From the NCBI GenBank assembly GCA_006384855.1, contig VCJN01000232.1:48289-112288 (forward strand): a stretch of DNA of 64,000 nucleotides, written 5' to 3'. Of this stretch, positions 5,001 through 61,335 are shown in pieces. Each line of letters starts with the position of its first letter. Position 1 is the first letter of the stretch. Made by a program: the position numbers and the translations under genes. The stretch comes from Tetraselmis striata (taxonomy: Eukaryota > Chlorophyta > Chlorodendrophyceae > Chlorodendrales > Chlorodendraceae). The notes below the pieces were generated by a model. The model did no database searches and was not told the origin of the DNA. It was given only the letters and a program-made list of their open reading frames with translations.

Positions 5001-8000
5001 AAAAATATTTGCTTTCTCTCTGGGGGTGTGGGCGGGGGCGGGGGGAGGGGGATCAAAAAGATAATATGCCGCGAACCCGAAGCGAGGTTAGGGTTTATAG
5101 CTAGGATTAGGGTTTACACACAACATGGAACACGTGAGTTCACGGCCCCCAAAACAACGAATTGCGTCACGAGCTCTACTCAGGGATATTGTGCGGAGTG
5201 GAATGTGATAAACGGCAATTGGTTTACAGTTATTCCCTCTTTGCAAGGGAGTGAGCCACGTTCAGCATGCACGGATCAGAAGTGCGTTTGCGGTGCGTCC
5301 GGGCATGACACGCACTCGTAGCCGAATATTCGATGTGCACCACAGTAACGATGAGGGCGGCGGTGTCCTGAAAGTCAGCGACAGCACCCTGGCAACACTT
5401 CTGACTTGTAAACGGCCCTTCTCAGTTCCGTCTGGTCAGCAACTACAAGGTCAGCGTCGGGACCTCACAACTATATAATACCACATGAATATGTAGTATT
5501 CATGTGGTGTTATATAATGTATTAGTAAACTATGTAATGTAATGTAATGTAATGTAATGTAATGTAATGTAATGTAATGTAATGTAATGTAATGTAATGT
5601 AATGTAATGTAATGTAATGTAATGTAATGTAATGTAATGTAATGTAACATAGTATAATAACATATGCTATGTTACATATAGTATAATATACTAAACTATA
5701 ATATAATATAGTATGTGTGCCGACGCACTGTGATAAGAACAAACATTTCCGGCCTATAATTGGGCTTGCGTGCAACAACCTAAACAAACATTCGCTACAG
5801 TTCTGCTATTGTTTCGTCTACATTTGATCTCTGACAGGCAGGGCAGGTGAATATCCGCAGTGTTCCTGCTACTACTGTGGCGGCGGCTGTAACACCGCAT
5901 GCTGTATTAGCGGAGACGGGATAGGAACCCAACTCTGGTTTCTCGCCATGGGGATGCGCAGGTGGGCGGGTGGGTGGGGGTGGTGGGAGGGGGGCGTCCA
6001 CGCGCGCACCCTTGCTGACGACGAGGAGGGAGAGGTCGAGGCGGTTCATGAGCAGGTCGGAGATGACCTCCTTGACGTAGGCCACGGCGCCCGGGACGTC
6101 GCGCTCGCGGAGCAGCTTCTCCAGGCAGGTGGACACGACGTTGCGGACGAGGAGGCAGTTGTCGCGGCGCACGGTCTCGATGCCCTTGGCGTCCATCTTG
6201 TCGTGCCGGTCGGGGCGCGTCCAGTACAGCCCCGCGTAGCGCTTCTTGGAGATGAGCAGGTAGGGGAAGTAGACCTTCTCAAACTCGAGCTTGATGGGGT
6301 GCGGGAAGGTGGTGGAGATGAAGTCCGCCGCCTCCTTGCCGAGCGCCATCGCCTCCTCCACGGTCTCCGCCTTGAAGTTCACCATGACCGAGTCCGTATC
6401 GCCATATATGACGTCGCTGTCCTCCTTGTACCCGTTGGCCTTGTTGTACGTGGCCATCACCAGCGTCTTGGTGTGCTCAATCATCTCGCGGCCGTACGAG
6501 GTCGTGGAGGCGCTGATCTCCAGGCAGGGCAGCGACCCCACCGTCGCGCCCGTGAAGCCGTAAACGCTGTTGGCGCTCACCTGAATGCGGCACGACAGCA
6601 ACACCGTCAGCCGCAGCCAGCAAGATGCGCGCCAGGCGAGGCAGAGTGGTGAATGATACGAAATAACGATATTTTTCTGCAAAAATCTGCTTTGCTCACA
6701 ACACAAAAGTGAATGCACGGCTGTGTATGTAACACCGAGCTAATCACATATAAATATATACAGGGGGAGGAGGGACGTGGTCCAACCTTGAGCGCAAGCT
6801 GGCGGCCGTCAAGCACCGCCTTCACAAAGGGGTCGGTCGCCGCCTTGAGGTCCGCCTTGGCGCGCTTACGCGCGCTGAGCAGCTCCTCCAGGATCTCTGG
6901 CAGCAGGCCCTGCGCAACTCACCCGCACGCCCGCAGCGTCAGCCCATACGGCACACACGAGTCGCGCCTTTGCCGAGAGGCGTGGGCAGCCATAGGACCG
7001 AATGGCACGGGGCCGCACCTTGCGGACGTGGGACCTGACAAACGTGTCGCCTGTGGGGGACTTCTCTATGTTCTCGGGCTTGTGAGAGTCCACCCTGCGG
7101 ATGGATAGGAAAAGATGGGCGGGGGCTCAGTGCATCGGCATCACAATGCCAAGCTTCTTGCCGCTTCATTTTCATCTTTGGCCATATCCGAAACATATTG
7201 ACACATCAAGTGGAACTGTGATAGAGTGGCGGGGTTCTATCTGTTGGGGCACTTTCACTGCGACTATGATTGCACAGCAATGCCTTATTTCGGGGCATCT
7301 TTCAATAAGGAGTCGCAACACCAATCAGTTTTTGAGAATTGGCCCCAGGACCCCACCATAACACTGCGCATGCGGTTCCACACCCTGTTTCCGAAGTAGA
7401 TACGACAGCCCGATGACTGTTTATGGTTTCGGAGCATGTCCCACAATTGGCGGTGGACGCAACTGGTCCCGGAGCGCCCGGCGCAAACAGCCTGGCGTGC
7501 GATGTGGTTTCGGAGCACATCATCTGGCATGCACGGACAATACATGGTTTCGGAGCATTGGCTGTGAGGAAATGTCCAAGTGATAGCCTTGGAGCACTGA
7601 CGTACTGCCACGCCGTGCGGTCGCAGATGTTGGTCTGGTGGTTGCCCTGCCACTGACGGACTGACAATACATGGTTTCGGAGCATCCACAAGGTATAGCC
7701 ACAAATAAACAGTTTGGAAGGCAGCGGATGGTGCAGCAAGCACTATGGGGACGCGGACCTGGGGAAAGGTACACGTTGAAGGGAACTGCGATGTGGAGGC
7801 GGGCGAAGGGGGGTGGGGTGGGGTGGGGGGGGGGGGGGGGGGGGGGGGGCGCACTTCTCGCGGGGCACCAGCGTGGAGTAGCAGAGGTTGTGCGCCATCA
7901 TGATGGAGGGGTACAGGGAAGCGAAATCCAGCGTGGCGACCGGCTTGTCGTAGTAGCCCTGCAGATGCGGGCGCAAATTGGTCAGGCAGCTGAGGGAAAG

Positions 8001-11000
8001 GACGCCAGCGCTACATGGCCATGCAGGGGGGTTCAGTGGGTCGCGCAGCGGGGGGTGCGCACCGCTTTGGCGTCCAGCACGGTGGCGCCCTCGTAGGTGT
8101 TGCCGCCCTCGGTGGCGCCCGCGGTGCGCGCCATCTTGGGCACCAGCAGCCCCTTGGAGCGCGCCTTGCGCAGGATCTGGGAGAAGACCTTGATGGACTG
8201 GCCGCGTGTGAGGAGGTACGCGAAGGGCACGCCCGTGACGCGCGCCATCTCCATGTAGTTGTACATGTACATCAGCTTGCCGAACAGCCGCAGCGGCAGC
8301 AGCGCGTCCTTCAGGCAGTACACCGCCAGGCGGCGGCGCGTCTCGTCGTTGCCGTTCTGCAGGTCCGAGATGCACGAGTGGTGCACGTCCTCCTTCTGCT
8401 CGTTTAGAAAGTGCGCCGACACGGCGTTGAGCGAGTACGAGGACAGCTTGTAGTCTCGCTGGATGGCGAGCATGAGGTCGAACTGCACGCGCCCCTCGAT
8501 CGTGATCTCCTTGTACTCGTGCGTGCCGTACGCCTTGCTGCTGAACTTGGCGTCCTTCATCTCGGTGCGGCTCCCGCGCACGCGGCCCCAGAACGGGAAG
8601 CTGCTCACGCCAAGCGCCGCGGCGCGGTCCAGCAGGTAGGGCAGGTCGAAGTTGCAGATGTTGTAGCCGATGATGACGTCGGGGTCGCTCTCGAGCACCA
8701 GGTCGCGCCAGCGCGTGAGCAGATCCTTCTCGCTCTGGAAGCTCATCACCTGCGCGCCCACGATCCCCGCGCACGTGTCCAGCGTCATCACGTTGCGCAC
8801 CACCGGCTCCGGCTGCCCCGTCACGCTCACCATGCTCGCGATCTGGATGACCGGGTCGTGCTGCGCCTCCGGGAAGTGGCCCTGCGCACATAAAAGGAGG
8901 GGCGGAGGAGGAAGTCAAGAGGGGGGTAGTGAATTCACCATACATGGAGGTACATGTTGCGTAATAGGACATGTGTATCCGTCCACGCATGTCCATGTTT
9001 GGTGGCTCGAAGTACCAAGGAAGTGGGGGGGGGGGGGGGGGGGCAGCCGCCGCACCTTCCGTCCAGCGCACTCGATGTCCACGCTCAGCACGCGCAGCGG
9101 CGCGATGCGCTGCCAGTCGCCCTCCGGCTTGTGCGGGATGAGGTCCCTGAGGGCGCCGCCGGCGCACAGGCCACCCCCGTCAGGCCTCCGCCTTCCCTGT
9201 CAAGCACCCCCCCCCCCCCCCCCGCCAGCACTACGCCAACGACCATACTGTGCTGTACTATGCTGCCACCAAAGCAACACATGCGGTGTCTTATCATCGC
9301 GTCGGCGCCTGTGGGCGGGTCTGCACCCAATGCCGGGACAGGTGATGGCGAGGCCGGGCCGTCACTGGGCGCCTCCCCCCAAAGTCAGCCCCCCGCAGGC
9401 ATCACCCACTTGTAGTGCACGTTGGCCTCCAGCTGGCAGTAGGTGCGCGGCGCGGCGGTGTTGCGGCGCCACTTGCCGGCGGGCACCTCCACCCAGAAGC
9501 CGCCGCCCAGGCCGGTGTCCACCATGAAGCGCAGCGTGAAGAGCACGTTGCTCTCGTACGTCTGAAACGCGCGGTCGCGGCCCAGGCTCGCCACCGGGAA
9601 CCCGCTCTCCAGGATGCCTGCCGGCCGATGAGGCGGCGAGGCAGCAAACACAGGAAGGGGGGGGGGGGGGGGGTCAGGAGGCTGCGGCTGAGGATGAGGA
9701 ATCTGGCCGGATGAGGTGCCACGGCGCAGCGCATGCGAGGCATCAAAGCCAAGGGCTGGTCGGCTGGATATATGTGGCGAGCACTTCACATCTCATTGTT
9801 TACCAAGATACATGTTGTCATACTGCCAGGTTCTGGCGCGGGGAAGAACCACATGGCGGATAAGAACCCGCCGTACCTGCCAACGCTCAAATGCAGACGA
9901 AGCTATGCCGGACCCATGAAGAATGTAGGCCGAACGCAGCCTCGAATTCCGGCTCATACAAAGGGGTTCTCGTCGATGCATTGGCGCGCATGTATGTATG
10001 TGGCGACCGGTGTCCCAAGAGACCCCATACGCAGAGCGGCCCATCCTGCACCGCGGACCCCCTGCATGCAAGCGGGCCCACCCCGCGCATGCAGGCCTTG
10101 CAGGCATGTCTAACAGCACAAGCCACACACCCGCCCCGGCACGGCTGTTGTGTGTGTGTGTGTGTGTGTGAGGGGGGGGGGGGGTCTGCATGCGTGGGTG
10201 TAACTGGGCGCCGAGCGTCCTCGGCGACGGGCGGAAGATGACGGCACCGCGCCTCAGCTGGCCAGCGCGTCTACCACAAGCCTCCATCGTTATGCTCCCC
10301 CCCCCCCCCCCCCCCCTCCCCCCCTCCCCCCCCCGTCCCCCCCCCCCCCACTCCCCCACAACCGCCCTTCCAGACCCCAAGGGAGAAAAGGATACGGGAG
10401 AGGGTAAAAGAAGAGAAATGGAGGGGGAGAGGATGAGGGGGTGAGGGAGGAGGGGGGAAGAAGAGTAGAGCCCGCGGCCGAGGGGTGTCCTTCCTTGTTC
10501 TTGGGTGCCAGAACTTGGCCAATAGTGCTCAAGTTGCCCTTTTATTGACTTCAGGGTTCAAGGGTTCGAGAAACCCTAGAAACGCTCAACCCTGCTAACT
10601 CTCTGATTGTGACTCCACGTGACCGTGACCCTTGGTTCGGCAAGCATACACGGGTAGCGTCCTTGGCAAGACTTGGCAACTCAGCTACATGAGCACTGGA
10701 ACAGGCACGATTGACGCTGATTGCCCGCTCTCATAATAGTTGAGAACTCGGTTTGCCAAAGACGACACCCCGTCGTGTGTTTGCAGAAGCAAACGGCACC
10801 GTCCCCTGTATCGGCAAAACGACACTTGATCCCTGGTGACCATCGTGCACAGCAAACGTGGCTGAGTGGGGGGGGGGGGGGGGGGGGGGGGGCGCTCACT
10901 GCGGCAGGGCGCCACGTGCTTGGGCAGCGCGACGACGATCTTGAGGAAGGCGCGCTGTGCCTGCGCCTGGTAGTTCATCAGCGAGCAGCCCTGCTGCAGG

Positions 11001-12885
11001 CTGACGCTCTTCACGAAGCGGTTGTTGCGCTGCTTGCCGCGCTGCGCCTCAAACATGCGCTTCTGCGCTCGCGGGGAACGCACAGCCAGGGGGCACACCA
11101 CGGGGTCAGCCCCCGCCAGCTCCCGGACGTGTGTTCGGCCCACCGTTTCCTCAGACACAAAGAGGGATCCGCAAGGCATGATTTGCTAGATGATTTGCTA
11201 GATGACATGATCCGAAGACAGGGGTTCGCTAGATGTTGTCCCCCCCCCGCCCCCGCCCGCCCCCGCTTGACCCCCTGCCCCCTCTCACCCTCCCAAGAGC
11301 CCAATGAACCGGCACGATGTGCATCCACCACGGCACTCCTCCGCCACAAGCAGCACCGGCCCTCATCAAAGTAGCTAGCCCATGTCTGGCATCGCTTTGG
11401 CGGCAGGCTGCGAGGCCCCGCCACGGCCGGCCGCAGCGGCGGACAGCATGGTGCGCGTGAACATCATGCCCCTGTGGTTTTGGTTCCCGAGAGGCCCAGG
11501 TGGGAAGCTTGGTGCGGGCGGAATGCCGCCTTCCTTCCCGGGCTCTCTGAGCTGCGAGCAGTGAAACACCCGCCACCGGCGAGCGCACCGACACCATGTG
11601 CCTCTCTGGCGCGGATCAGCGAAACGAAGCGGTGGTGTTGATATTCTGTGGAGCTGTGTAGAGCGATGTCGGGTGCGCGGTGACACCAGGGAACCATCTG
11701 GGGGTGATGTACGCAAGAATGATTCCGAATTCCGCCAGAAATCCCAGAATCGTAGCCTCAGCATTGCAACGACGCCGCTAGCACACGTAATGGCGGTGGT
11801 GCCATGCGGGGGGGGGGGGGGGGGGTAGGGGGGTTTTGGGGGGGCTCACGTTGAGCTCCTGCATCATCTGGGCACAGTCGTCGGGGCCAAAGTCGGGCGT
11901 GGGGGACTCGATGTAAAAGTAGGGCTCAAAGCCGTGCACGAAGATGGCGACGCTGTTGCCGCCGTCGTTGACGCCAAACATGCGCAGCACCGGCAGCTCC
12001 TCGTTGCTCTGGTACTCCGTGATGTAGTCGATGTCAAACTGCTGGAACACTGCCGTGAAACCAAGCCGAGACCGGGGAGGGGGGGGGGGGTGAGAGGGGG
12101 GTGTGAGAGGGGGGGGGGGGGGGGTGGGGCGATAGCAGTGGCAAAGGCAAAGGCGCCGACATGCTTGAGATGCAAAGGATACAGAGTTAGAGACCGGCAA
12201 AGGGAGGGGCGGAGAGGCGCTGGCGCGAAGGGTGACGGGGATGGGTCAGGGTGAAGGAGGGAAGAGCACGGAGCACCCCCCCCCCCCCCCCCCCCCCCCC
12301 CCCACACACACACACATTCATGCATGCATTCGATAAAGTGAAGGGCGGTGCGCAGTAAGAGGGTCTAATCGTTGGCGGGGAAGGCCTGGAGAGAATTGGG
12401 CGAGGCGGAAGCTCACGGCGCTTAGTGGGGGGGGCGCGAGGGGCAGGTGCGGAACGACACGGGGGAAACAACACGCAGCGCACACAGGCGCGCGCGGTCG
12501 TGAAGCTCGTGGCCGATGCGCACGAAGGCTTCGAGCTGTCGGCAGGATATGGCTAAGGAAAGTTGGGCGTGCCGGGGCGTGGTGGGGAGGGGGGGGGGAC
12601 TGTGTCACCCAGCGCGTCTCGCCGTGGGTCGATGGGCGCCAGCTCCGGGCGCGGCCAGTTCTTCGCCGCCTCGCCCAGGTCCAGCGGCGCCGCCGCCGCC
12701 TCCTCCTGGCTCGCGGGCGGCGGCGGCCCGTCGTCGGCCTCCTCCTCCTCCAACATCGCCATCAGCTCTGCCTCCTCCTCCGGGTCCACCTCCGGCGGCG
12801 GCCCGTCCGGCACCGGACCTCGCGGCCGCTTACTCGCCGGGCCGCCTCCCCCCGCGGGCCCCGACCCGTCACGCTTGCCATCCAT
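2048..12885 (-). CDS. POLD1: DNA polymerase delta catalytic subunit (13 exons, complete)
   Basis: Replicative B-family polymerase of the lagging strand, nuclear, with 3'-5' proofreading. Exons in coding order: 12885-12609, 12049-11850, 11062-10900, 9617-9410, 9146-9056, 8881-8063, 7958-7855, 7094-7019, 6909-6787, 6580-6010, 4825-4548, 3353-3030, 2107-2048. They sum to 3294 nt and join in phase to 1097 residues plus TGA (human 1107). The start MDGKR matches the animal N-terminus. Visible motifs: Exo I D306-I-E308, Exo II N387-x4-D392, Exo III Y501-x3-D505, Pol A DFASLYPS from 597, Pol [10 protein letters not shown] from 687, Pol C YGDTDS 746-751, CysA C1003/C1006/C1020/C1023 (zinc), CysB C1052/C1055/C1065/C1070 (the Fe-S site of the family). 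Exo I reads SVDIE where SFDIE is usual. All introns are GT-AG except intron 11 (GC-AG). A TGTAA, the algal poly(A) signal, lies at 1925-1921, about 120 nt past the stop. No break is seen, so it is probably functional. Confidence 0.96.
2798..2940 (+). repeat. Dispersed repeat copy A (in POLD1 intron 12)
   Basis: Shares with 5750-5870 and, inverted, 9840-9925 a core containing TATAxTTGGGCTT, then TCTGCATTTGA and TGGCAGGCAGGGCGGGTTCTTAT. Three divergent copies lie in three introns of one gene, which fits a small non-autonomous mobile element. No coding capacity is seen. Confidence 0.65.
3354..4547 (-). other. GC-AG intron 11 of POLD1
   Basis: Exon 11 ends AAAG at 4548 and the intron begins GCATGC. 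No GT nearby restores the conserved junction [15 protein letters not shown]. The acceptor CCGCAG before 3353 is ordinary and phase 0 is kept. AG|GC donors are a known minor class. The intron also holds a sense-strand C run (about 3876-3894) and a short telomere-like stretch near 4344-4378 that belongs to the flanking repeat DNA. Confidence 0.8.
4344..4378. repeat. Short telomere-like stretch (CCCTAAA type)
   Basis: About three degenerate CCCTAAA units (AAACCCTAAACCTAAACCCT). Similar scraps occur at 5085-5112 (TTAGGGTTT) and 29093-29125. Too short for a telomere, but of the plant and green-algal telomere type. Confidence 0.6.
5480..5508. repeat. Perfect 12-bp inverted repeat (hairpin)
   Basis: Arms ACCACATGAATA and TATTCATGTGGT are separated by five bases, 25 bp before the pentanucleotide array. 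It lies in POLD1 intron 10. A weaker inverted repeat (GTAACATAG ... CTATGTTAC) follows the array at about 5644-5673. Confidence 0.8.
5533..5647. repeat. (TGTAA)n microsatellite, about 23 units
   Basis: Uninterrupted 5-bp units in POLD1 intron 10. On the plus strand it is a run of TGTAA, the algal poly(A) signal motif; on the POLD1 sense strand it reads TTACA, so it should not affect that transcript. Confidence 0.97.
5750..5870 (+). repeat. Dispersed repeat copy B (in POLD1 intron 10)
   Basis: Same core as copy A (TTGGGCTTGCGTGCAAC, then TCTACATTTGATCTCTGACA and GGCAGGGCAGG). It lies directly after the AT-rich pentanucleotide array. Confidence 0.65.
7424..7684 (+). repeat. Cluster of four TGGTTTCGGAGCA motifs in POLD1 intron 7
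   Basis: Exact 13-mers start at 7424, 7505, 7545 and 7672. The last two share a longer block (GACAATACATGGTTTCGGAGCA). The same 13-mer is found at 16444, 26666, 33398 (minus) and 62895, with single-mismatch copies at 16487, 26721, 38647, 38714 and 55158. Confidence 0.85.
7825..7849. repeat. Homopolymer G25 (C25 on POLD1 sense strand) at +6 of intron 7
   Basis: The exon 7 donor reads GTGCG and is followed at once by the C run. Comparable runs at intron starts lie at 9025-9043, 10868-10892 and 12589-12598 in POLD1, 16094-16110 and 17562-17578 in the minus LRR gene, and 27114-27129, 27327-27350 and 29956-29972 in the plus LRR gene. Confidence 0.9.
9840..9925 (-). repeat. Dispersed repeat copy C, inverted (in POLD1 intron 3)
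   Basis: The minus strand reads CTTCGTCTGCATTTGAGCG and then GGCAGGTACGGCGGGTTC, matching the cores of copies A and B. By orientation it was inserted opposite to the other two. Confidence 0.6.
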
Positions 12886-14550
12886 ACCGGCAGTGCGCCG
12901 CTGTCTGGGGGGATGCTCTGCTGAGGGAGCGAAGTGACGGCTGGCCGTCGAGCCGTTGGTCGATGCGGCTGGCTCTCAGTGGTTTTGTCGGGTCGGCCGA
13001 GAGTGCTGGCTCAAGGCGACGATCCGCGACCACAAAGGCGACTACTCCAGCTGCGCGTGCGCGCTCGTTGCCGTCGACAGGCAGGCGTGCCGTCGGTGCG
13101 CAGTTCGTAGTTCGTATTCGAACTCGTCCTCGTCTGCTGATGTCGTCGTCGTCGCGGGCGGGCGGGCGGCGGACGATAACGCCACTATATATATTTGAAA
13201 TTCAAAAAATGAGCAGTCAACTCTTATTAAGCGACGAGAACAGTAATCCTGCGCTGCAGTAGGTAGTCGCTACATATATATTTATTAACAGTTCCTGGGC
13301 ATGGTACTAACTGCTATTTCCCATAACCGTACCATGAATAATATATTTCCTATAACTTTACTATAAATAATTATTTATTCAGTACCGCTTATCGCATGAG
13401 GTATAGCAGGCGGTCGCTACTGGGAGTCTTAACCCACATCGTCACGCGCCTCGTGATTGGATGATATCATATAATATGTGATCATACATTTATGTGACGA
13501 TATGCTGATCATGTAGGGGTAGCACTGGTAGTACAGTATTTACGGGCAGTACTCTGCAGATGATCAGTTGGTCATCGAGACCCTGCGTGTTGCTTTCTCT
13601 TTTGGCCCCAGGGACAAAAAAGGACCAATAAGAAATATGTTCCATAAACAGAACTTGAAGTAAACCTTATCATAAGCCGGCGCCCTCCACAGGCAGGCGG
13701 TATTGCATCAATTACAACGTGTATTTATGTGGAGATCAAGAAAGGACCCGTTACCACACAAAACCGTCCCGCCCTGATAGCCGATGCTCAGATGACTGCA
13801 CTGAGAACCGTGACCGTGCGCGAGGACCGCACCTTAAATTGCTAACCCCACAGAGGCATGAGCTGGACTGTCACCGCCGAATACCTTCAATCAATTGTAG
13901 TTCTGCCCTAGCCGTCCCTAACCACAGAACGACCCTATCCATGGAAGGTCAACTCTACTCGTTCCGTCGATGCTCTATGTCCTGGGCGCGCTACTCGTTC
14001 TAACTGAACACGATTGCCCCAGGTACGCGTGTTCATGCATGTCGGCGATGGCATGCCGAAACATTCTGTATATAGATCATTTGTTGGAGGTGACTGTGTT
14101 GAGGGGGTACCAAATATTCTGCGCTGCAGAGTGCGCGTAAATGGATGGATGCGCCGGGATGCGGGGTGGGGACACCTCGCTCAATACTGATGTCTGTGGT
14201 TCTCGGGTGGGCCAAGAAAGTCAAGACCCCTGGTCGGCATGGCGAGCGTGTCAAAACAAGCAGCCGACGCCCCAGCAGCGGGTGACCATATTGCTGCGAA
14301 TGGTGGTGTCATCATCCAGTCAGTCAAGACACTGGGATTCTTGCCCGGACTAGTTGCGACTCCCCGCCCACTCATTTCCCTGTGACGATGCTAGCTGATA
14401 TGAATGCACGCGCGCTCAAACGTCAGAACTGCCACGAGGCGGGCCGCTCTAGCTTCGGCAGTTGCCACCCGGATTTCGTTCGGGTGTAGCTGGCGCATCA
14501 GAAGTGACGGCGCAAGGCTGCATCGGCCGATGCGCTCGTCGCAGCACTGC
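12886..14550. other. Intergenic: POLD1 5' flank and minus LRR gene 3' flank
   Basis: Up to about 13180 it is GC-rich and must include the POLD1 promoter and 5' UTR, but no TATA box or other element is clear. From 13200 to 13700 it is AT-rich and without reading frames. No gene, RNA or mobile-element coding is recognised. Confidence 0.6.
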
Positions 14551-17500: not shown

Positions 17501-18372
17501 TCTCATCGTCAGAGAGTTCAGAAAGCAATGCCGACAGGGAGTGCCTTGCCGTCACAACGGAGGGGGGGGGGGGGGGGGCACACAGCGCAGTCAGGTTGCT
17601 GAGGGTGCTCCACTGCGGTGGCAGCACGCCCTCCAGCGCATTGTTGCTCAGGTCCCTGCCGAGCGGCGCATGATAATGTGCAGGGTCAAAACGAGTGGAC
17701 AACCAAAGGTTAAAGAGGCTCACCTGAGTCAAATATTATGACTTGGGTTTCGGTCGGAATACTGTCTGATCAGTCAATTCGAAAAAAGGAAAAGAGGAAA
17801 GGAAAAGAAAAACTGGCCAAATAATATACGCATAGGCCAGAGAAGATATCATCTGACACAGCGAAAACCGGCCAAATAAAGTGCAGGGCAGTGGACGGGT
17901 GCATACAGCCGCTCCATTCCCATCAGTGAGCTGAGCTGCTCCGGCAAGGCTCCCCCCATCGCTCTGTTCGACACGTTCCTGCGCGCGCCGACCAGGCCAC
18001 CGGGTCGCGTCAGCAGAAATGTCAGCTCAAACAGCTGGCATGTTTATATGCCGGCGCACGCAGCCAAATCTTTGCTGGCGCGCGGGCGGACGGCGCGGGG
18101 AGGGGGGGGGGGGGGGGGGGGGGTGGGGAGCGGGGGGGGAGGGGGGGGGGGCAGCACAGGGAGGCGACGGTGCCCGCGGGGTGGCAGCTCACGCCCGTCC
18201 AATCCGTGCACATCTCCGTCACGTCGCTCCAGGACTCGGGGCCGCCGCGCATCATGTCCCGGACGCCGAGAAGCAGGCTCTTCTCATCCGCCGGCGTCAG
18301 TGGGTCAGGTGCTGGGGCAGTGGTAAGCGGAGTGGCGAAGCCGCCCGTGGACGGTTGTGGGGTGCTGGCCAT
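14551..18372 (-). CDS. LRR receptor-like membrane protein, two ectodomain modules (5' end uncertain)
   Basis: Exons in coding order: 18372-18158 (cysteine cap, ESW..C..WTGVSC), LRR exons 17978-17907, 17655-17584, 17100-17029, closing repeat 16884-16837, second cap 16295-16116, LRR exons 15778-15707, 15573-15502, 15403-15332, 15182-15111, last exon 14719-14551. They join in phase 2 throughout to 371 residues plus TAG. Each 72-nt exon encodes one 24-residue plant-type LRR (DLSNNxLxGxLPxxWSxL). The last exon carries one membrane helix (LLPGWAISV...VVLWIC) and a 13-residue basic tail, so this is a type I protein without a kinase. The ATG at 18372 gives no signal peptide. An upstream signal-peptide exon, as in the paralogue at 23.6 kb, is probably missed, perhaps joining at an AG near 18410. 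Ligand and role are unknown. Paralogous to 23638-32162, divergently transcribed. Confidence 0.85.
16444..16499. repeat. Inverted pair of the 13-mer (hairpin) in an LRR intron
   Basis: TGGTTTCGGAGCA at 16444-16456 faces TGCTCCGAAACTA at 16487-16499, giving 13-bp arms with one mismatch around 30 bp. It sits in the intron between the closing repeat of module 1 and the cap exon of module 2. Confidence 0.8.
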
Positions 18373-19049: not shown

Positions 19050-19275
19050 TGGAGGTGGAATGAAGCAGTAACATGAGAAGACACAGAATGGGCACAAGCA
19101 CACGCATCAGACTTGGCCATCTGCACACCGGCAGAGACAATGCCGCCCAGGGTACCATGCACGCAAGCCGAGACACGCTGCAACAGCCCCCGCCGTGTGC
19201 GCGACAGGTAACGGCGGAACTCAGCAAGCCAGGTTGGCTGGCGATAAAGTTCCGAAGTGCCTGAACGGATTGACC
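19050..19275 (-). repeat. Duplicated segment, copy 1 (unknown coding remnant)
   Basis: About 225 bp repeated in the same orientation at 19437-19661 (offset 387 bp), clearly similar by eye with scattered changes. Minus-strand translation of both gives HGTLGGI(V/L)SAG...AKSDA and RRYLSRTRRGLL-like strings. Copy 2 has an in-frame stop after RRGLL, so at least that copy is broken. Family not recognised. Confidence 0.7.
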
Positions 19276-19436
19276 ACCATTACCCCATGGCATATATGAT
19301 ATGAAGGCTACCGATACGACCTCGTATATATTGCGCCGACACTAGTAGTGACCTACTATAGCTACATGAGCTAGCTGCTGAAAGCGATAAGGAAACCACC
19401 CGAATAGACAATAGAAAACGTCCACTACATGAATTG

Positions 19437-19661
19437 CGAGGTGGAAGCAGCGCCAGAAGAGGGTGCGGAATGAGCAGCCACGGGCAAACGCATCAGACTT
19501 GGCCGTCTGCACTCGTCCGGCTGAGAGAATGCCGCCCAAGGTACCATGCACGCAAGCAGAGACTCGCTACAACAACCCCCGCCGCGTGCGCGACAGGTGA
19601 TGGCGGAACTCAGCGGGCTGGTTGGCAACAAAGTTTCGAAGAGCTTGGACGGACTGACCAC
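19437..19661 (-). repeat. Duplicated segment, copy 2
   Basis: Partner of 19050-19275. An open minus-strand frame continues upstream to 19815 and includes a hydrophobic stretch (VVYIFAVIFVV), which could be a membrane segment of a lost gene. No family is recognised. Confidence 0.65.
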
Positions 19662-20777
19662 GAAGGAAGCATGAAGTCGGGGCGGAAGGACCGCCAGGGA
19701 AGTTGCGCACAACAAATATCACAGCGAAGATGTAGACCACCGTCAAAGCGGATTTTCCGAGTAGGCGGCCGCGGTCCTCAACCACAAAAGGGTAGTACCG
19801 GTGAACACCGTGCATCGGGGCGGAAGATGCCCGGTCCGCCGCTAGCTTGTTGCGCTCCGCCTCGGTCGCCGCAATCCCCGGGGTGCACTAGCGGGGGTCG
19901 TTGCCCCAAGTGGGCGTCGTGGAGGACAAGCACGCGAAATCGATCATGTAATCGCACGACGTCCCCCCACCCCGCTAGCGTCAAATTAGACGGCCGCGAG
20001 CGGTCCGCTGGGCGCAACCCACTCGTCTCAAGGGTCAAGTCGCCGACTCCCGAGCGGTCCCGGTCGAGCACCGCCCCCGCTTCGATCGCCACAGATGCCC
20101 ATAGATGGTATGCATGCGGTCTTTGTAGTTCGCAACGGGGCAGATGGGCAGATGATCCACGACGAAATCCGTGGCGTTCCGGTTCGAGCCATCCGTAGAG
20201 CAAAGCCATAAGGGGCCAATTCCACACGTGGGGCCATGACATGCTGTGACAAGCGCGGAACCCCCGCGTGGGCGAAGGCCCAGCACCCGCGCAGCGGCGG
20301 CCGAATAAGCAGCATGGGGAATCTTGCGGGCTGATTCGTGATCCGACTGGAAAAGCGATAGGGAGCCCGGCCCGCATGCGCTGTACAAGCGCAGGGTATA
20401 AAGGCGCGAGGCCGCGGCACCCATGCATACGCTGGAAGCCAAGAGCGAGGGCCACGAAGTCACGCAATGAAGCGAATCGCACGGCTGAGGTGGCGTTCAT
20501 TGGACAACCATGGTCGTCGTGGGTTGATCATCGGAGGTAGCACCCGTACCCGTACCCGTACCCGAGGGCGGAGCTGTAGTAGCATGTACCGCCTGGCTGA
20601 GGTTCTAGTAGGGACGGAGATGCCACTGACGGAGGGGGTGCCACTAATTCGCGGGGCGACGGTATCTTGAGAGCTACAGAAGCGCACCTATTATCCTCTT
20701 TCACATGGCGACTATGCGAGAACGACGTCGGTACTTGTACCGATTATCTACTCGTCTACGGGTACAGGTACCTGAGG

Positions 20778-20779
<2 letters not shown>

Positions 20780-20816
<37 letters not shown>
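20780..20816. repeat. (GA)n microsatellite, about 18 units
   Basis: Uninterrupted AG dinucleotides in the intergenic stretch between the LRR genes. Confidence 0.97.
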
Positions 20817-20817
<1 letters not shown>

Positions 20818-23637
20818 AATCTTTTATGGAGCGCTGTAGGGAGTCGCTGTAAGGATTAATAATATAATCCTGGGAGTGGTTTTAGGACTCGTGCCAGGAC
20901 GCTCATACCAGCACCAGTGCCTCGAGATTTTGTGGTACCGGTATTCCTACCACAGTATGTGGTATTCGTACTCGTACTGACTCAGAGGACGTTAATACCG
21001 TGAGAACGAGTCACTCGCGGCTACTGGGTGTCCCGCCGCCCGCATGACGCGGTACACTTGCAGGGGCTACAACCCGCCGGCCACCCCGGCACCTGACTTC
21101 GCTGGCGTGAAGCACATGCCAAACACCACCCTAGCCCAAGATACGGGTAGCCCAGCGGGTAGCGCAACGGGTAGCCCAGCGACTTCGCTAAGTACCTTGT
21201 GCGGGGCGCGGCGGGCTAACCCCTCTTCGGCAACGCTCTGCGGCCGAGGCGGAGGGGACCGGCGACGGGCGGGTGCAGCGGCACGTGCAGATGCGGGCTT
21301 TCTCGGGCTCTGTACCAAATATTAGTAATTTAAAATTTCGATACTGCGCCGACATGGCGACAGGCGACCCCAATGGCACTGTGAGACGGCCTGGTAGCAG
21401 TCGTGCAAAGCACAAAGCCTCGCCACGCCACAGCAAGGCAGCTCTCCCCCCGAGGAAGCTTGTAAAGCGCGTTCCACAGTCTTACGTCGGTCGGTTCGGG
21501 CAATCGGTGGCCAACACGCGTTCCGCCCGGAGACGCATGCGCCGTGCCCTGTGATCGCCCCAAAAACTCTCGCAGCGAGTACGCTTTCATGTCTTAGCGA
21601 CTAGAATAACTCCCTATATGCCAAAAGTTTCTGCATGTGCCGGTTTTATGTCGGTAGAGCCCACCCTGAGCCGCAGCGGTCTGTTGAACGTCCACCGGGT
21701 GGGTGGGGCAGCTTTGGATGGTTGGCAGGCGCGGAGGACGCCCTCAAAGGCAAAATTGACACTCTTGCGACCGGAGGAATACGTTTTTGGGGAGTTCAGT
21801 TGTGTTCCTGGCCGGTCAGAATGGAGTTGATTGGCCGCCGGGTGCCCGACCTGTCCTTTCAGATTTCTGCTGTTCTACCAGTGCAGGTACCGCCATGGAG
21901 AGACAAGTTCCACCAAAACATCCAGGCACTAGCTAGAGGCGCTGTTTTGTATTGGCATCTGCAGATAACTATTGTGTGTGACCTGTTAGAATACTGTTGG
22001 AAGTTATCTCTCGCCTTCAATTAGTATCGAGGAATGCTCGTAATCTGCTGCTTGACCGAAAATCGCCTGCCGAGGGCTTTCTGTAAGCGGATGATCGGTG
22101 CTCAACAGGCATAAGGAAGCTGCAAGGGCGGTTTCATTCAACGTTGCTGCCAGTCCTGTACTCTCGGCGGCGAAAATATAGTACGGTAACAACAACAATG
22201 ACATACTGTATCATCCTTTGCGTGCCTTGGCACGCACTTCCTGTCAGCGCACTACAGTAGTATTGGTGGTCCAATTGCACGAAACAATCCCCCCAGCGCA
22301 GAAGCATGAACAGCCGGACAAGTACCTGCTGCAGGTACAGGGTACCTGTAATCATGTCGTTCGGATGCGTTATTCAACTCGTCCAGCTCGCTATCCAATA
22401 AAATAAATCGATTTGCGCCCTTATTCAGATGTGTGTATATTATTACAGTATAAGCGCGCAACGACGAGGCCATATAGGGACGACTACTGTACACATACGT
22501 GTTCATAGTGTGTTCTGGGTAGCGACTGGTCGCTACCGGGATTAATGTGTGGCAACAATCTGGGGCCACACGAGTCACTCGTTCGTTACCCGTAGGTACG
22601 AGGATTATTCACACAGTATTTAACGGTATCAGTACGAGCGGCACGCATTACGCTTCATGCCCCCTCCCCCGCCCCCTAACGACCTCCCTTTCAGCCCCCT
22701 TCAGCTTCACAGCGTTTGCTATTGCTTCCGTCGGCACAGCGCGGGTCTTCCTCCCATCATTCTGGCCTGCTAGGAAAGTGCCTGGCGCTATCGGTGTGGC
22801 TACCCAGGGCGTTCTGAGTCACGTCGTCAGTCCGTCCCCGATTGTCTGTCGTACATCGCGAGCTGCCGCGCGCCGCCGCCGCCGGTTCCCAGCCTCGTAA
22901 CGGTGGGGGCCGTGACCTTTCCAGGAGTGCTTCCTTGCTGCCGAGGCTCCACGTGTCGCCGTCGTCCCTGCGGTTTCCTGGTGGTCACCAAACGGTGCGA
23001 TACCTCGACTCAGTCACTGACACGAGCCTGACCACCACCTGATCGCCGGCTCGACCCCGCGGACGTTGCGTGCGCTGTCTGCGGCTCGGGCGGCTTAGCT
23101 CGCGTCGTTGGCCGGCTTCACGATTTCCCTCGCTCGGTCTCATGTGATGCAGATTGGGCTCGTCTCCCAGCCCCGCCTCCCGCCTTTGGTGATCTAGCCG
23201 CTCGAAAGCCAGCGACCTGATGGCAACACTAAATCCCCGCATCTGTAGGAGAACTCGCATGTCAGTACTGTCGGTGGTGTCATCGGCGGCGCCGGCGAGT
23301 GCCGAGTGGTGCTGCCCACAGCGGGCGTTCCCTAACTGTCTGAGAGCAGCCTCCGTCGTACCCGCCCCTCTGTCGAAAGGCACGTCTACTTCGAGGCGGA
23401 GTACCGGCACTCCCAAGCCTACGGGAGTACCGGTAGGGTCTCACCACATCACTCAATCGGATGCGGCGTACCGGAAGTGCCGCTAGTGTGCGTCAGCGTC
23501 GACTCCGCCTGGGACGCTAGTAGAGGCGCCGATTTGACTCGTGTAGATTATTGGCTACCAGGTCTTCGGCTCTCGGTACTCGTGTCGTTCCGCTTCCCTC
23601 AGGAACGCCATCCTCTCTATCATATTTCACAGACGCT

Positions 23638-23806
23638 ATGGAGGCCGCCGCTTCCTGGCGCCGCTACCTCCTGGTTCTGGCGCTGTTCCTGCTCCTGCTC
23701 GCGCCACCGTGCGTCGCCGACGACGATGACGGGGATGACGATGACGACGGGCCCGACGACGACAACTCTGCCAACCCTAGCTCGCCGCTGTCGCCTCAGG
23801 ATACAG
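23638..23806 (+). other. Signal-peptide exon of the plus-strand LRR gene
   Basis: The ATG at 23638 opens MEAAASWRRYLLVLALFLLLLAP, with basic residues then a leucine-rich core and a likely cleavage after CVA, followed by a run of Asp. This start is chosen because it gives a secretory N-terminus and the donor at 23807 (phase 1) matches the acceptor of exon 2 at 24015. Confidence 0.85.
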
Positions 23807-25264
23807 GTGCGTGATGAGCCCCAACAGCCTACAAACTCAGTGCCTGGATTGAATCCCCAACCACCGCCACCACCCATCCCTAAATGAGGCACAGCCCAAT
23901 GCATCCAGGCACGCATGACATAAGCATGTCCGCGCTTTGGGCTTGCAGTTGGGCAAATGGCCCTGGGTGGCGTGGCAGGGTACTGACTACCGCTGCCGGC
24001 GGCTTTCTACACAGTGAAAAATCAACAGAAAGACATTCTGTTGGCATTTTCTACCTCACGGATGTCTGTGCCCGGCGGGCGCGTCGCATCCTGGCCCATG
24101 GACGCCGACCTGTGCACCTTTGGCGGCGTGGAATGCAATCCCGAGGGCCAAGTCACGGCGCTGTAAGGCCATGACCCCCTGCATACCCCCCTCTCCTCCT
24201 TACGCCCGCCTGGTCCATCCCTGAGCAACTGCAGAGGATTGGCTGAGAAGCTGTGACGCTGCGCTGCAGGTACATTGGGCTCAACCGCATCACTGGATCT
24301 GTCCCCGCGGAGTTCAGCGCCTTCACCGGGCTGACAGACCTGTGAGTACCTGGGCCGGATGAGAGAGCGCATGCAGGCATGCGAGCATTTTGATGGGCAT
24401 GTGCTCAGACTGCCTGACAGGTGGCATAGAGGGCTTACGGTGGGCTTGCCTTTGCCCCTGTGTACCTAGGTTCCTGCCCGTCAATGACCTGACGGGGACG
24501 CTGCCTGCACAGTGGAGCGTGCTCACGCAGCTCAGGAGGCTGTGAGTATCCGTACCTCCCTCGCCGCCAGTGAAATGTCTGGACAGCAGGAATGCGGATC
24601 CGTTTGGCGAGAGGGGGACGGGGGGATGGGAGGCAGCGGTGGCTCACTGTGGCTCTCATGTTCGCAGGTCTGTCGACAGCAACAGGATCACCGGGGTTGT
24701 GCCGCCGCAGTGGAGTGCGCTCAACGCATTAGAGCAGCTTTCCGTGGCCAACAACCAGCTGAGCGGCAACCTGACTTCGCAGCTTGGCGCAATCACCGGC
24801 CTGAAGCAGCTGTGAGTTGATGCTGCCACAGAAGCCTGGAGCGCTCTCACGGACAATACCTAGATACCCATGCTATTGTGCTATACGATTTTCACCCACA
24901 AAATGCAGGATACACCGGAACATATACAGGATTTTTTTTAATGTTTTTATATAGTCAGGTAGATGTAGATGATTGTATGGATACACACATATATGCATAC
25001 AAATATACATACACATGCATTCATCTGATATCCATCTGATATAGATTGATATTTGATTTATAGATATGTAAATTATATGACTTGATTCCCTTATATATGT
25101 ACATGTTTATGTTCAATGTATACATGTATATAAAATATGTATGGATACATATTTGTGTGTGAACGTGGAAGTAGTCTCCTCATGTATTGCTGTAGTTCAC
25201 ACAATACTGATCTCGGGCAACATGTATGGTTATAGTACATAATATTTCAGGCATGGATGCAGGT

Positions 25265-25313
<49 letters not shown>

Positions 25314-28300
25314 CTGAGGGCTGCTGGCGGCGCAGGTCCACGTCCAACAACATGCTCACCGGCCAGCTACCCGTGCCATGGAGCACCTTGACGGCGATCA
25401 CCAGCATGTGAGCTCCGCACACCGCTGCTCCCACTTTGCCACCCTCTCCCCCCCCCCCCCCCCTCACCCCGGGGCCGCCGTGTCAGCTGTCAGCATGGTA
25501 TGCATGCTCCTCACAGCAGTCCTTGCATGTGTCTGGTTGGGGGGCCTGGTGCTGTGAGATGAGCGGCGGTCCTCCCCGCCCTGGCTGGTCTGACCCCGCT
25601 GGCTGCTGCCTCGGCAGGGACCTGAGCGACAACGCCTTTTCGGGCGGACTGCCGGTATCGTGGAGCGTCCTGGGAGCGCTGACCAACCTGTGAGTGGCCG
25701 GGTCCCGGGTTGACGGCAGATTAGGGGGGCCGGTACCTAGCCGGGGGGCGAATGGAGACTGGTCTGCCGAGAGTATTGCACTGCTATACCTAGCGGCTAT
25801 CGCACAAACACAAACCATCCGCGGATGGATAAGGTTTTCGACCCCCCCTCCCCCCCGACGGAGAGAAATTTGTAAAACCGGGGATGACATAATTACTCAT
25901 TTACCACAACTATTACACGAAATCCCCGGCACGGCGCTGCAAAACAATTGAATATTTTGAAGGCACGTGGAGGGATATTGAGGCTACGGTATATTCATTT
26001 CTTGTCAGGGCAATATCTTTCTGTGGCGATGCGGTGATTATTTTGTTGTTAAGGCGCCGTATTGGGTGCACGGGCGACGCAACTTCTTGCTGAGAATCTC
26101 GTGTTGGTGCATGCCTTGCAGGAACGTTGCCGGCAACCAGCTCACGGGCGGCGTGCCGGAGCAGTACAGCGCCATGAGCTCCCTCACCCAGCTGTGAGGA
26201 GCCGCCCGGAACCCACTGTAGCCGGACTCCCACCCTGACCAGCTGCGCCACCACCATCCTGGCCGTTGACAGCACCCCCCATCCTGCCCTTTCCTCCGCA
26301 GAAATGTGACCAACAACGCGCTGCAGGGCTTTGTGCCGTCCGCCCTGGGGTGAGGGCTCCCACCTGCTTCTCCATGCCTGCCTAGGGACGCTATTCTACG
26401 GACATCAACCGCACCTGGATCCTGGTGCATGTGCTGTATATATCTGTGGCGATGGGGATGGGCTTTCATGGACTCGGCCATCGGAAAAATGTCATCAAGT
26501 AATGTGGCACATTAGCAACTATACTGTTTTCACATGATGTATAACGCACATGATATAATTAGATACATTCATGTCAATTTATCCGCGTTTAGAAGGAAAT
26601 ACAGGGACAAGCACGTAATAGTACTCATATTAAGTGTCTTGAAGATAAATAAGTGCTTACGTGAATGGTTTCGGAGCATCCACAGCGGTAAAAGTTACTA
26701 GCTGCTCCAAAAACGTTCTATGCTCCAAAACCACAGCGTTCTGCGCCACACCACTTGTCGCGGCTTTGTCTATTTCAATCAAGTATTTTGTCAAGATAGG
26801 AGCAACGGCCTGTTTTCCATCATCCAATCTTACGTTTCTCTCACACTGCCCTCTCATGGCCCCGCTGTGCAACCGATGTGCAGGTCTGTCAGTGTCATTG
26901 GCCTCGAGATGGCCATGCCCGGGGTGGACTTCAACGTCACCACCGCACCCACCCCGGCTACGATCGACCCCACCGTCGAGCAGCAGATGGGGCTGCTGCT
27001 TCAGGTCCAGGTCTTGATGGGTGGCCTCGCGTCCTGGAGCCCCGCCACAGACATGTGCACCCAGTGGGTGGGCGTCACCTGCGGCTCCGAGGGCACCGTC
27101 ACCTCTCTGTGCGCCCCCCCCCCCCCCCCTCTCCAGTCAAGCATGTATCACTGCGCGCAAGTGGGTGCCCATCAAGTCTACACGTTGCACAGCTGAGCCG
27201 CCCGCCTGACGCGACCCCGTGATCTGGCTGCCCCGTCCACAAAGGGACCTGTCCAACAGCGGGCTGCGCGATGCCACACTGCCGGTGCAGATCGGCTTCC
27301 TGACTTCGCTAAGGCAGCTGTATGTGCCCCCCCCCCCCCCCCCCCCCCCCGCTGGCCAAGAGGTTACAGTGATGATATCTTAAATAGAAAACGATTGCGG
27401 TTTCGCTACCCAAACTAATGGGCCATAGGCAGTTGTATTGGGCTTGCAGTCTTCCGACTCGAATATTTTGTGGCGCTCCATTACTCTGTTTCAAGCTGAG
27501 TGAAACTCTCTCCCTGCTCCACTACCCCCTCCCCCCCAACTTTGTGGCTGCCTGCAGTGACCTGAGCAACAACAAGCTGGTGGGCAGTCTGCCGAAGCAG
27601 TGGAGCGCCCTCAGCAACCTGACTGAGCTGTGAGTGGCGCCGCCACATTGCGCCCTCCGCGTCCCCTTGCTGTGCCCGAGAGGCCAGCGCGGCGTGCCGG
27701 GGTAGAAATGCTCTTAGAGGCTTCCCCCCTTGAGGTGTCCCAAACGCGAGACGAAAAAGTACAATAACACCTCGGATGAGGACCGCACCGCGCCAACGCA
27801 GATATACAGCGTAACAACACTCTGGGTAGTTGCCTATGTATGGTTGTTTCTGACCCCCCCCAACCCCCCCCCCTTGGGGAAGAGAGGAAAATTGCGCTTA
27901 TCCGGGAAGTACATGTTTCACATTACTGCACAAATACTGCGCAGATATCCACCGCAATGTACACCATAATATACCCCGTGGATAGCAGCAAAGCAATTCC
28001 TTATCATTCGGACCCGCGAACTCAACACAGCGGTGCTGCTGCGTATCCAGCAAATACTCCCGCCATACCGGGAGGGGTTCGTGAAATGATGTCTCATTGC
28101 TGCATATCCATGCGTGTACCAGTAACGTACGTCACGGCGTTACACAGCAGTAGTAGTTCGCAGTCAATACCGGCTGGACCTACACACGCGCCGCACGCTT
28201 GTACCGGACAGTGCGCTTTCAATGTTTGTGATTTCGTGGCATGAACTATTGGCAGTTATGGGCCGCAGTTGATACGATAATAGTGTTTGTATTAGAGTTC

Positions 28301-31300
28301 GTCTCCGTTGTTTTCAATTTCGGTCTCGTTCAATGAATGGTCCTTGGATCTTTAATAAATCGTACTCGTACAACGCCCGTCCAGCCTAGTACGGGGAGCC
28401 TGTACGCCCCCCCCCCCCCCCCCCCCCACTCCCCTAGTAGCTCCCATCCCAGCAGCTTGGTTGTTCCGGTTAATGCAGCTGCTGGGCGCTTGCCGGCCAA
28501 TTGAGATCCCCCCCCCCCCCCCCCCCCACCCTCCCCCGCACGGACCCCCGCAGCAACCTCAGTGGCAACCAGCTGATCGGCGAGCTGCCGGAGCAGTGGA
28601 GCGCCATGAGCTCACTTCAGAGCATGTGAGATGCGCCGCACCGCGAGGGGCTGCTGCGGGGGCTCTGAGTCCATGATTGTCTCACCACAGTACCCCCACT
28701 GTCTACCGAGGCGCGGATGGCGGCCTGATGCCCTGTCTCCCACTGTCTCCGCAGGAACGTTGCCGGCAACTACATCGCTGGCGTGACGCCCTCCAGCTTT
28801 GGGTGAGCTGCTGGACGGAGTGCCTCACCCCCCTTCCCCCCCTCCCCCGCCTTCTTATCTTTATTGAGTAGGGTCTATGCGGCACTGAGCGGGAGCTATG
28901 TGTCTTTCAAACTAGAATCATGGTGCATCAAAAGTATCACTACCCCTCCCACCCTTCTGCCCAACACACATCTTTCATTACTTTGATGCTACCGTCAGGT
29001 GGTCAGGTGGTCATGTGGTCAGGTGGTCATCTTTCATTGCTGTCAGGTGCCGAAGCATCTAGTGTAAGAACCCTTATCATAAGCCTCCAGCTCTTAGGGT
29101 TTGAGGTTTAGGGTCTGTAGTGTTTATGTTTATAATCTCAAAACCCCAAAAACCCCAACCCCGAAACACTAAAAACTTTAAAATGGGCTTTAACGCGACC
29201 TTAAGCCATCCTCTATTCCTCCTCCTATAGTTTTATCTACATTTGACGTCTTGTTCTACACTTCTACCGCGCCGGCACCGTTGACTGTCGGCCTTTGAAG
29301 CTAATGAATTATTTCCCATGGGCTCCAGGCTCCCCCCCCCCCCCCCCCCCTACCCCCCCCCAACACCACGGCTGGGCTGAACGCGTGCGCTGCCGGCCGC
29401 CTGCAGGTTTCCCGTGCAGGGCCTGCTGGAGGACCGGCAACCCCTGCAGTTGCCCGCGGACCAGAAGAGCGTCCTTGCGGCCTGGGCCCAGTCAGCGGGC
29501 GGCCTCCCCCCGTCCTGGAGCAGCGCCAGCGACATGTGCACTGCTTGGGAGGGCGTGACCTGCGACTCTGCGGGCTATGTCGCGGCATTGTGAGAGCGCC
29601 CCTCACCCCCCGCCCTCCCCGGGCCGCCACAGTGATCTTCTTATTTGATTCCTGTCTGTGCGTCTCTTCTCCCGGGCGACCGAGTTGTCCCCTGCAGTGC
29701 AACCCTGCAGCTGCCATTACTCCGGTGGTCTATTCAATCCGCTTGGATTCAACATGTCTCACTTTATTGCAGCTTAATGTCGTGTGGTGCAACCCGACCC
29801 GATCCATCCCAATCTAGCCACCCCCCCCCCCCCCCCCCGTCCAATGCAGCCTGTGACTCCATGGGATGGCCGCCGCAGGAACGTGTCGGGTCAAGACATG
29901 CGCGGCAAGCTCCCCACCTCCATGAGCGGCCTCGCCAGCCTGAAGCAGATGTGAGCCCCCCCCCCCCCCCCCGCCCTCGCCGTTGCACCGCCTCCCACCA
30001 CACCGGCTCCCTCATGTCCGGGGTCTATCTTTGCCACGTGGGCTCCGCCACATGCAGCCGCGGTCACAGTCGCCTGGCGCTCCCCGGTAACACCAACAAA
30101 TGAAAGGCAAATTGTTCCGACTTCCGAGTGCGATGAATACTCACTGAAATATATACGGAATCACTCGGACATCATGTCCAAAGTATTTCATATACATGTG
30201 TATATATTAGACGTAACATGTAGATGTATCTTGATGTACATACGTGCCGAGTTATATCTATAATTGCTATTATATTTATATTGCTATTATAATGATGATG
30301 CTATATTCGCATATTTGGCGGTCCTTCCCTATAATATTAATGCATGGTTATGTAGATTATATCTTTATTTGTATACTACCGCCTTGAATTTTCATGATTA
30401 GGCTACGTTGCCTATGCCGCTATACTTTCTCGCCTTTTCCCTGCTACCCTATTCCTCGTCTACGTTAACCGTATGCCGCGGGGGGCTGCTGTTTTCAGGA
30501 ACATGTCCAACAACATCTTTGACGGAGGCTTGCCCGCGGTCTGGAGCGCGCTGAAGGGGTTGCAGACGATGTGCGTGAGGGCACCACTGCCTCCTGGGTG
30601 CTGCGCTTCGTGGGTGTGTGTGGGTGTGACGGTCACGGCGACGACAACGGTTGCTAACGTCATGCTTTGGTGTGCGCCGCTTGCTGCCACAGGGACCTGG
30701 GCAACAACTTGCTGACGGGGCCGCTCCCCCAGGAGTGGAGTGCGATGAGCAGCTTGCGCGACCTGTGAGTGCCCCCCTCACCATCCGCCCCCTCTCACCC
30801 ACACACACCACCACCACCACCACCACATTCCTCCGCTAAAACCCCCTCCCCCCCCTTCGAATCCATGCTCATGCACGTACCATTTCGATTGGGTTTGTGA
30901 CTTAGTGGTCCAAAAACCATTATGTGTTTACCAACATTGATTCGGGATGTCTGATTTTTCCTCTCTTGACAAGGGGGGTCAAAAACGATGATGCAACGAA
31001 ACCTTGGTTGCGGTAGGATCACCGTGTCGGCATGCCGGGGTACAGCGCTGCAGCTCTGACATGCCCAATGCGCTTGTCGCCGCAGGAAGCTAAGTGCGAA
31101 CCAGCTGACGGGGTCCATCCCAGAACAGTGGGCCGCCATGGCCTCCCTGACCAATCTGTGAGTGTGCCCGCCCGCTGCGGGGTGTGAGGTTGAAGAGATA
31201 GACGGGGGGTACGTGGGACCGCGTGTCATGATGAGCGCTGACAGGCGGATATGTGCCGGCCCTGATGGCGTGCAGGGACCTGTCTGCCAACAAGCTCAAC

Positions 31301-60934: not shown

Positions 60935-60965
<31 letters not shown>

Positions 60966-61291: not shown

Positions 61292-61335
61292 TGTTACACG
61301 TCCGTGTGCCCCACCCAATGACATTGCGCCCGACC

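Follow-up and report, generated by a model that had tools for sequence, protein, structure and literature searches.

In Tetraselmis striata, a green alga, long C homopolymers cluster on the sense strand just behind 5' splice sites

Homopolymers of C or G are usually viewed as scattered, position-blind products of slippage, and the stability of poly-G/poly-C tracts of the Caenorhabditis type depends on DOG-1/FANCJ. Tracts rich in a single base are also known directly downstream of 5' splice sites (donors), where TIA-1 binds U-rich intron starts. Here we describe long runs of C behind donors of the green alga Tetraselmis striata, both in a stretch of 64,000 nt (contig VCJN01000232.1, positions 48,289 to 112,288; hereafter the window, in whose own coordinates positions are given) and in the remaining genome. 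The window carries POLD1, the gene of the DNA polymerase delta catalytic subunit, and leucine-rich repeat (LRR) genes. Two described systems come closest. For C. elegans PMC2211496 reports 396 poly-G/poly-C tracts, which exceed expectation and lie in both introns and intergenic sequence. Where such a tract falls inside a gene, its G strand is more commonly the non-coding one (84 vs 47), and location within Caenorhabditis introns is given there as unbiased. In animals C-rich motifs act as splicing enhancers, and PMC2481429 cites a single example close to a 5' splice site; PMC4797308 and PMC5829739 belong to the same literature on C-rich enhancers and poly(C)-binding proteins.

In T. striata the C-tract pattern at donors is real, strand-specific and found well beyond the window. 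As in Caenorhabditis, C/G homopolymers are strongly over-represented: the assembly of 224.1 Mb and 2,903 contigs, which all genome-wide counts cover, holds 100,602 C/G runs of at least 12 nt compared to 1,156 A/T runs. This number stands against the 396 tracts of C. elegans, though the length thresholds differ. The preliminary description of the window had proposed that the C bias follows transcription and not the chromosome strand, and our sample of 161 introns agrees with this: 69 C runs of at least 10 nt lie on the sense strand compared to 22 G runs, so that T. striata genes, too, carry G more often on the non-coding strand. Unlike the Caenorhabditis tracts, however, those of T. striata peak sharply at the 5' splice site, with 15 of the 69 C runs starting at intron positions +3 to +12 where 1.3 would be expected. 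The U-rich intron starts bound by TIA-1 are likewise rich in one base directly past the donor, but here that base is C and not U, and the tract is known from sequence only. C-rich sequence adjoins the splice sites as it does in the C-rich intronic enhancers of animals; those enhancers are C3-C4 motifs or C-rich polypyrimidine tracts, whereas the T. striata homopolymers are mostly longer than 12 nt and free in length. Our searches of the open-licence PMC literature listed no report of C tracts at algal donors.

POLD1 occupies 2051..12885 of the window on the minus strand, with 13 exons and 12 introns. The protein joined from the window exons had TSEL_002859 (label Tetstr1) as its top match among 4,123 hits at E ≤1e-100, and a spliced alignment of TSEL_002859 (P0001) placed 1,097 of 1,097 residues exactly. 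With these exon borders, C runs of at least 10 nt begin no more than 24 nt from the donor in introns 1, 2, 3, 5, 7 and 12. A C10 begins 10 nt behind the intron 1 donor at 12608 (12589..12608). Behind the intron 2 donor at 11849 a C7 lies flush at +6 and a C18 begins 24 nt in (11808..11849). In intron 3 the donor GTGAGCG at 10899 is followed by C25 (10868..10899), in intron 5 the donor at 9055 by C19 (9025..9055), in intron 7 the donor GTGCG at 7854 by C25 flush at +6 (7825..7854), and in intron 12 the donor at 3029 by C26 (2994..3029). C runs within about 40 nt had earlier been listed for introns 1, 2, 5, 6, 10 and 12. For introns 1, 2, 5 and 12 this was correct, with starts 10-24 nt in, but introns 6 and 10 have only a C6 within that distance. 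Introns 4, 8, 9 and 11 showed no C run of at least 6 nt near the donor; intron 11 has a GC-AG donor, at 4547, which is present in both POLD1 copies described below. Sense-strand G runs (G9-G28) exist in POLD1 too, but they are deep, 186-601 nt into the introns.

All eight donors named in the preliminary description are present, each behind an open exon. Two of them, 7854 and 10899, are those of POLD1 introns 7 and 3. The other six belong to putative LRR genes, which lie in both orientations at 14550-18372 and 23637-32162, seemingly with a single leucine-rich repeat encoded by each exon and with an end that spans the membrane. These six donors follow LRR-like or N-terminal-cap-like exons and are all in phase 2. 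On the minus strand they are GTGCTG at 18157 with C11, one less than the C12 first reported (18141..18157, N-terminal-cap-like exon), GTGTG at 17583 with C17 (17562..17583, LRR exon) and GTGAG at 16115 with C17 (16094..16115, N-terminal-cap-like exon). On the plus strand they are GTGCG with C16 (27109..27129, N-terminal-cap-like exon), GTATGTG with C24 (27320..27350, LRR exon) and GTGAG with C17 (29951..29972, LRR exon). They are placed by exon frame, and for 16115 and 27320 by exon frame only, as the introns that the ab initio prediction gives with a near C run do not include these two. The prediction contributes one further LRR exon donor with a C16 from 40 nt in (25408..25463, plus strand). 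The window is unusually rich in donors with a flush C tract and was picked for that richness: it has 5 sites at which GTGNG is directly followed by C12, where genome density predicts 0.5, and all 5 are among the donors listed above. It holds 44 C/G runs of at least 12 nt and no A/T run of at least 10 nt. Its longest C/G homopolymer is a G49 at 25265-25313.

For the distribution within introns we used a self-trained gene finder with a strand-symmetric intron background and a donor matrix ending at +5. It returned 28 genes in 254,897 bases, and 161 of the 167 predicted introns were kept at a gene score above 40. These are mostly predicted introns, and 115 of them come from outside the window. 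Checked against POLD1, the finder placed 11 of 12 donors exactly, missed the GC donor, for which it has no model, and added two extra donors. Loci L002-L008, which are overlapping copies of L001, were excluded from the gene-prediction counts and from the random genomic sample used below, whereas the protein predicted on L022 was retained although apparently in the wrong frame. A Pfam scan of seven predicted proteins, two of them trimmed to a start codon, gave matches for five and none for two. A subset without transposon-like genes drops, by judgement, those on L011, L012, L018, L023 and C40m and leaves 89 of the 115 introns.

Sorted by their start, C runs of at least 10 nt reach 9.3 per kb at +3 to +12, 3.1 at +13 to +22, 1.2 at +23 to +32 (equal to G there), 2.5 at +33 to +42, 1.2 at +43 to +62 and 0.2-0.7 beyond. 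The sharpest excess is thus in the first dozen intron bases. G runs of this length start at 1.2 per kb at +3 to +12 and 0.2-0.3 per kb beyond +62, and the intergenic density is 0.24 per kb per orientation. There is a lesser C excess 33-42 nt upstream of acceptors (3.1 per kb vs 0.6 for G). Outside the window 7 of 40 C runs start at +3 to +12, where an even spread predicts 0.71 (Poisson P 1e-5), compared to 1 of 17 G runs (0.30 expected). A run of at least 10 nt starting before +40 was found as C in 23 and as G in 5 of the 161 introns (P 0.0009). For the 115 introns outside the window the counts are 13 and 4 (P 0.049, weak on its own), and for the 39 introns of genes on Pfam-supported loci they are 9 and 2 (P 0.065). 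In this sample C and G are therefore not equal, and C runs are enriched within 40 nt of donors. Calling them "immediately after" the donor, as was done at first, fits some introns but overstates many: the first C run of at least 8 nt begins by +10 in 10 of 161 introns and at +11 to +50 in 15. Most donors (137 of 161) have no near C run at all. The share varies by gene (chi-square P 0.0035; 5 of 9 on L010, 1 of 31 on C80m, 0 of 10 on L023, 0 of 8 on C40m), and we read the difference between plus-strand genes (5 of 80 introns) and minus-strand genes (19 of 81) as such gene-to-gene variation. Behind the 100 predicted GTGNG donors a C10 lies within +6 to +25 in 10 cases and a G10 in 1; for 2,868 other GTGNG words the counts are 6 and 101, the frequent G10 arising because the word itself is G-rich.

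The same counts bear on the idea that selection acts only against sense G tracts, as G-quadruplexes or hnRNP H sites, and leaves C tracts by default. Beyond +102 there are 37 C runs of at least 10 nt compared to 15 G runs, short G tracts (4-7 nt) are scarce at +5 to +13 (1.4 per kb vs 4.1 intergenic), and the C. elegans genes have a similar orientation bias according to PMC2211496. A loss of G cannot, however, make the C peak, because near-donor C runs greatly exceed the intergenic density and long G runs, of which there are just one or two, do not fall short of it (0.69-1.24 vs 0.24 per kb). For the donor peak this explanation is contradicted and as a general account it is very improbable; it may apply to the bias deep in introns.

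Genome-wide, GTGNG directly followed by C12 occurs 1,898 times and the reversed word 211 times; these flush sites make up 1.9% of the 100,602 C/G runs. We sampled 20 of them at steps through the top 100 of the list, which come from low-numbered contigs, and swapped one that was already in the sample. Coding-like sequence (score of at least 4) was found upstream of 16. The median upstream coding score was 11.6 for the flush sites and 14.9 for predicted donors (n=159), compared to -0.7 for intergenic GTGNG words (n=1,117) and -1.6 for intergenic C-run starts (n=45). Because of the 16 sites in 20, about 80% of the flush sites (95% interval 56-94%), or near 1,500, are likely real donors. A simple reading in which C follows donors everywhere is not borne out when T stands at +6: GTGNGT-C12 is found 136 times and its reverse 55 times, without a comparable excess. 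GTGNGT-G12 occurs 2,969 times and 253 times reversed, which is no clean contrast; most of the 100 places listed among the 2,969 are GTGTGT-G compound microsatellites. In the GTGNGT word counts C is not seen to exceed G at +7, the G version being dominated by GT repeats. The gapped pattern GTGAGN{0,25}HG12 (5,113 vs 2,659 reversed) is likewise swamped, by low complexity and a repeat. In the random genomic sample, taken without gene models (94 runs of at least 12 nt in about 191 kb), the donor motif was not enriched before C runs and most runs were not at donors.

A shared origin, with introns as copies of one inserted element (an introner) that has a 5' C tract or with the signal stemming from the LRR exon family, could in principle produce many flush sites. 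Contig C1460 has 13 listed CTGTGAG-C12 sites, most about 250 nt apart, at 14386-15683 and 61457-63295, where they probably belong to tandemly duplicated units. But the 20 stepped flush sites did not resemble one another at E 1e-3 once low-complexity sequence was filtered out, and the CT before the donor that is the common LRR form here precedes only 108 of the 1,898 sites (5.7%), about the level of base composition. As a general source, an introner or the LRR family is contradicted by these unlike sites and by the CT share, and we give the idea almost no credence. Among the 161 introns there are 37 matching pairs, which we read as dispersed repeats or transposon-like genes.

A second POLD1 copy on contig C116 (95% identity over 2.9 kb; C116:77501-87500, locus L032) allows the tracts of the window copy (2051-12885) to be compared at shared donors. 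The coding sequences are 99.1% identical, with 28 differences in 3,084 bases and 3 in amino acids; the introns outside runs are about 94% identical and differ by 5.5-6.9%, 11 of 12 being comparable. Judging by these two copies, two haplotypes or subgenomes seem to be present in the assembly. C tracts are present at the same donors in both, with lengths in the window and on C116 of 10 and 27 (intron 1), 18 and 7 (intron 2, where the flush C7 is C7 in both), 25 and 12 (intron 3), 19 and 19 (intron 5), 25 and 26 (intron 7) and 6 and 9 (intron 10). Intron 12 is outside the coverage of the second copy. Deep runs of C and G shift likewise, for example G28 to G20 and G20 to G36. The non-run bases at +7 to +60 are not more conserved than mid-intron sequence (30 of 437 differ vs 279 of 5,116). 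Homopolymer lengths in an assembly may carry errors; that two contigs have tracts at matching places is well founded. Since the lengths differ and the flanks diverge like mid-intron sequence, the comparison favours slippage over strict conservation. An origin by slippage on a C at +6 had been suggested from the window; the length differences speak for slippage, but many runs begin later than +6.

The most economical account, which we hold with slightly more confidence than doubt, is a slippage regime acting on C-rich intron starts. C/G homopolymers, and not those of A/T, would grow by slippage from a length of roughly 8-10 bases onward and afterwards remain at about 16-25. The first 60-100 nt or so of introns being C-rich and A-poor on the sense strand, C seeds would be common and sense G seeds rare beside the donor, and some C seeds would become long tracts. 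Selection on GTGNG may pin the 5' edge of a tract beside the donor and so sharpen the pile-up at +6; selection for the tract itself would not be needed. Run lengths in the 255-kb sample are indeed two-humped, with 42 runs of 9-15 and 97 of 16-25. C content in the 126 run-free introns is 0.38 at +6 to +12 and 0.35 at +13 to +42 compared to 0.28 between genes, and short C tracts (4-7 nt) at +5 to +13 reach 14.5 per kb vs 4.1 intergenic. A seed model in which long tracts arise from C8 seeds, as expected from the C content of the run-free introns, predicts a 7.8-fold excess at +13 to +42, where we observed 8-fold (+14 to +42), and 1.8-fold deep in introns, where we observed 2.3-fold.

Several observations weigh against this account. 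The seeds at +6 to +12 predict 5.6-fold, compared to an observed 46-fold at +5 to +13, so an excess of about 8-fold beyond composition is mostly unexplained. At +43 to +102 the prediction is 5.4-fold and the observation 2.3-fold, and the model thus errs in both directions. Among C tracts of at least 6 nt, the long ones make up 16 of 22 near the donor vs 37 of 84 deep in introns (P 0.03). The exon ends in AG at 260 of the 1,898 flush-run donors (13.7%), compared to 42 of the 100 predicted GTGNG donors and, among GTGNGC donors lacking a run, 15 of 37, a shortage that plain slippage does not predict. Even if just 56% of the 1,898 sites were donors, about 450 AG ends would be expected at 42%, a share that is possibly overstated because the donor matrix includes those exon positions (POLD1 alone has AG at 4 of 11 GT donors). 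Finally, the account has no explanation for the C-richness of intron starts.

The AG shortage and the sharp clustering right behind the donor are what would be expected if the C tract were a splicing element, at which a poly(C)-binding protein of the KH type helps U1 to hold donors with poor exon-side pairing, in the manner of TIA-1 at U-rich intron starts. PMC2481429 cites a precedent from chicken beta-tropomyosin, involving hnRNP K and a C-rich motif close to a 5' splice site. Donors with a run by +10 (10 introns) agree with the canonical U1 consensus in 3.6 of 9 positions compared to 5.1 for those without a run (136 introns; exon part P 0.001), though the ten include four LRR donors, which are not independent. 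Yet runs at +11 to +50 (15 introns) do not go with weak donors (5.3 vs 5.1), nor do near-donor runs overall (P 0.38). Tract length is free between the POLD1 copies, down to 7 where the other has 18, their flanks diverge like mid-intron sequence, and 137 of 161 donors have no near run. U1 itself is not expected to read the Cs, as both U1 genes found begin with the canonical ATACTTACCTG, and pairing of U1 to the tract is rejected on this ground. We also rejected a tract that keeps the donor unpaired: in local folds from -60 to +80, predicted donor accessibility in the 24 run introns was 0.308 as found, 0.328 after shuffling of the downstream part (P 0.20) and 0.432 when C and G were exchanged (P 0.004); over all 139 folded introns it was 0.334, 0.321 and 0.371. 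A splicing role is kept in play because of the flush excess and the AG shortage, and we consider it possible but on the unlikely side. In its specific form, about 1,500 introns would use a slippage-made, length-labile flush C tract to dock a poly(C)-binding splicing factor, letting the exon side drift from AG; this form we think doubtful.

Mutagenesis coupled to splicing or transcription might be another source of the excess that slippage on C-rich seeds leaves over. Polymerase pausing, or a paused bubble past the donor, might expose the non-template strand and let C tracts grow there. The strand bias does follow transcription, and growth beyond the seed prediction is confined to the first dozen bases. 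Introns with runs are, however, not restricted to the 5' part of genes: their mean relative position is 0.42, and that of introns without a run 0.50. R-loops, which the preliminary description had offered as a possible cause, form preferentially on G-rich non-template strands and are disfavoured by a C-rich sense strand. We regard such coupling as improbable.

The sampled loci also contain repeats. Multi-intron predicted gene copies at 58171-60253 of the window and on L018 and L023, with introns more than 90% alike, are probably a transposon; their predicted introns are all free of near-donor C runs. A dispersed repeat of about 40-110 bp lies in both orientations within several introns of L009, L010, L014, L020 and the window. 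Near the window end lie tandem arrays whose units measure 30, 193 and 368 bp, at 59966-60190, 60783-61293 and 62952-64000.

Gene models, read mapping and RNA-seq may fail across donors with C tracts, which calls for caution in this genome. In T. striata a share of the C/G homopolymers is anchored genome-wide to one functional site and to one strand. Such anchoring offers a natural experiment on two possibilities: that donors influence mutation in their surroundings, or that they recruit labile sequence to serve in splicing as a signal.

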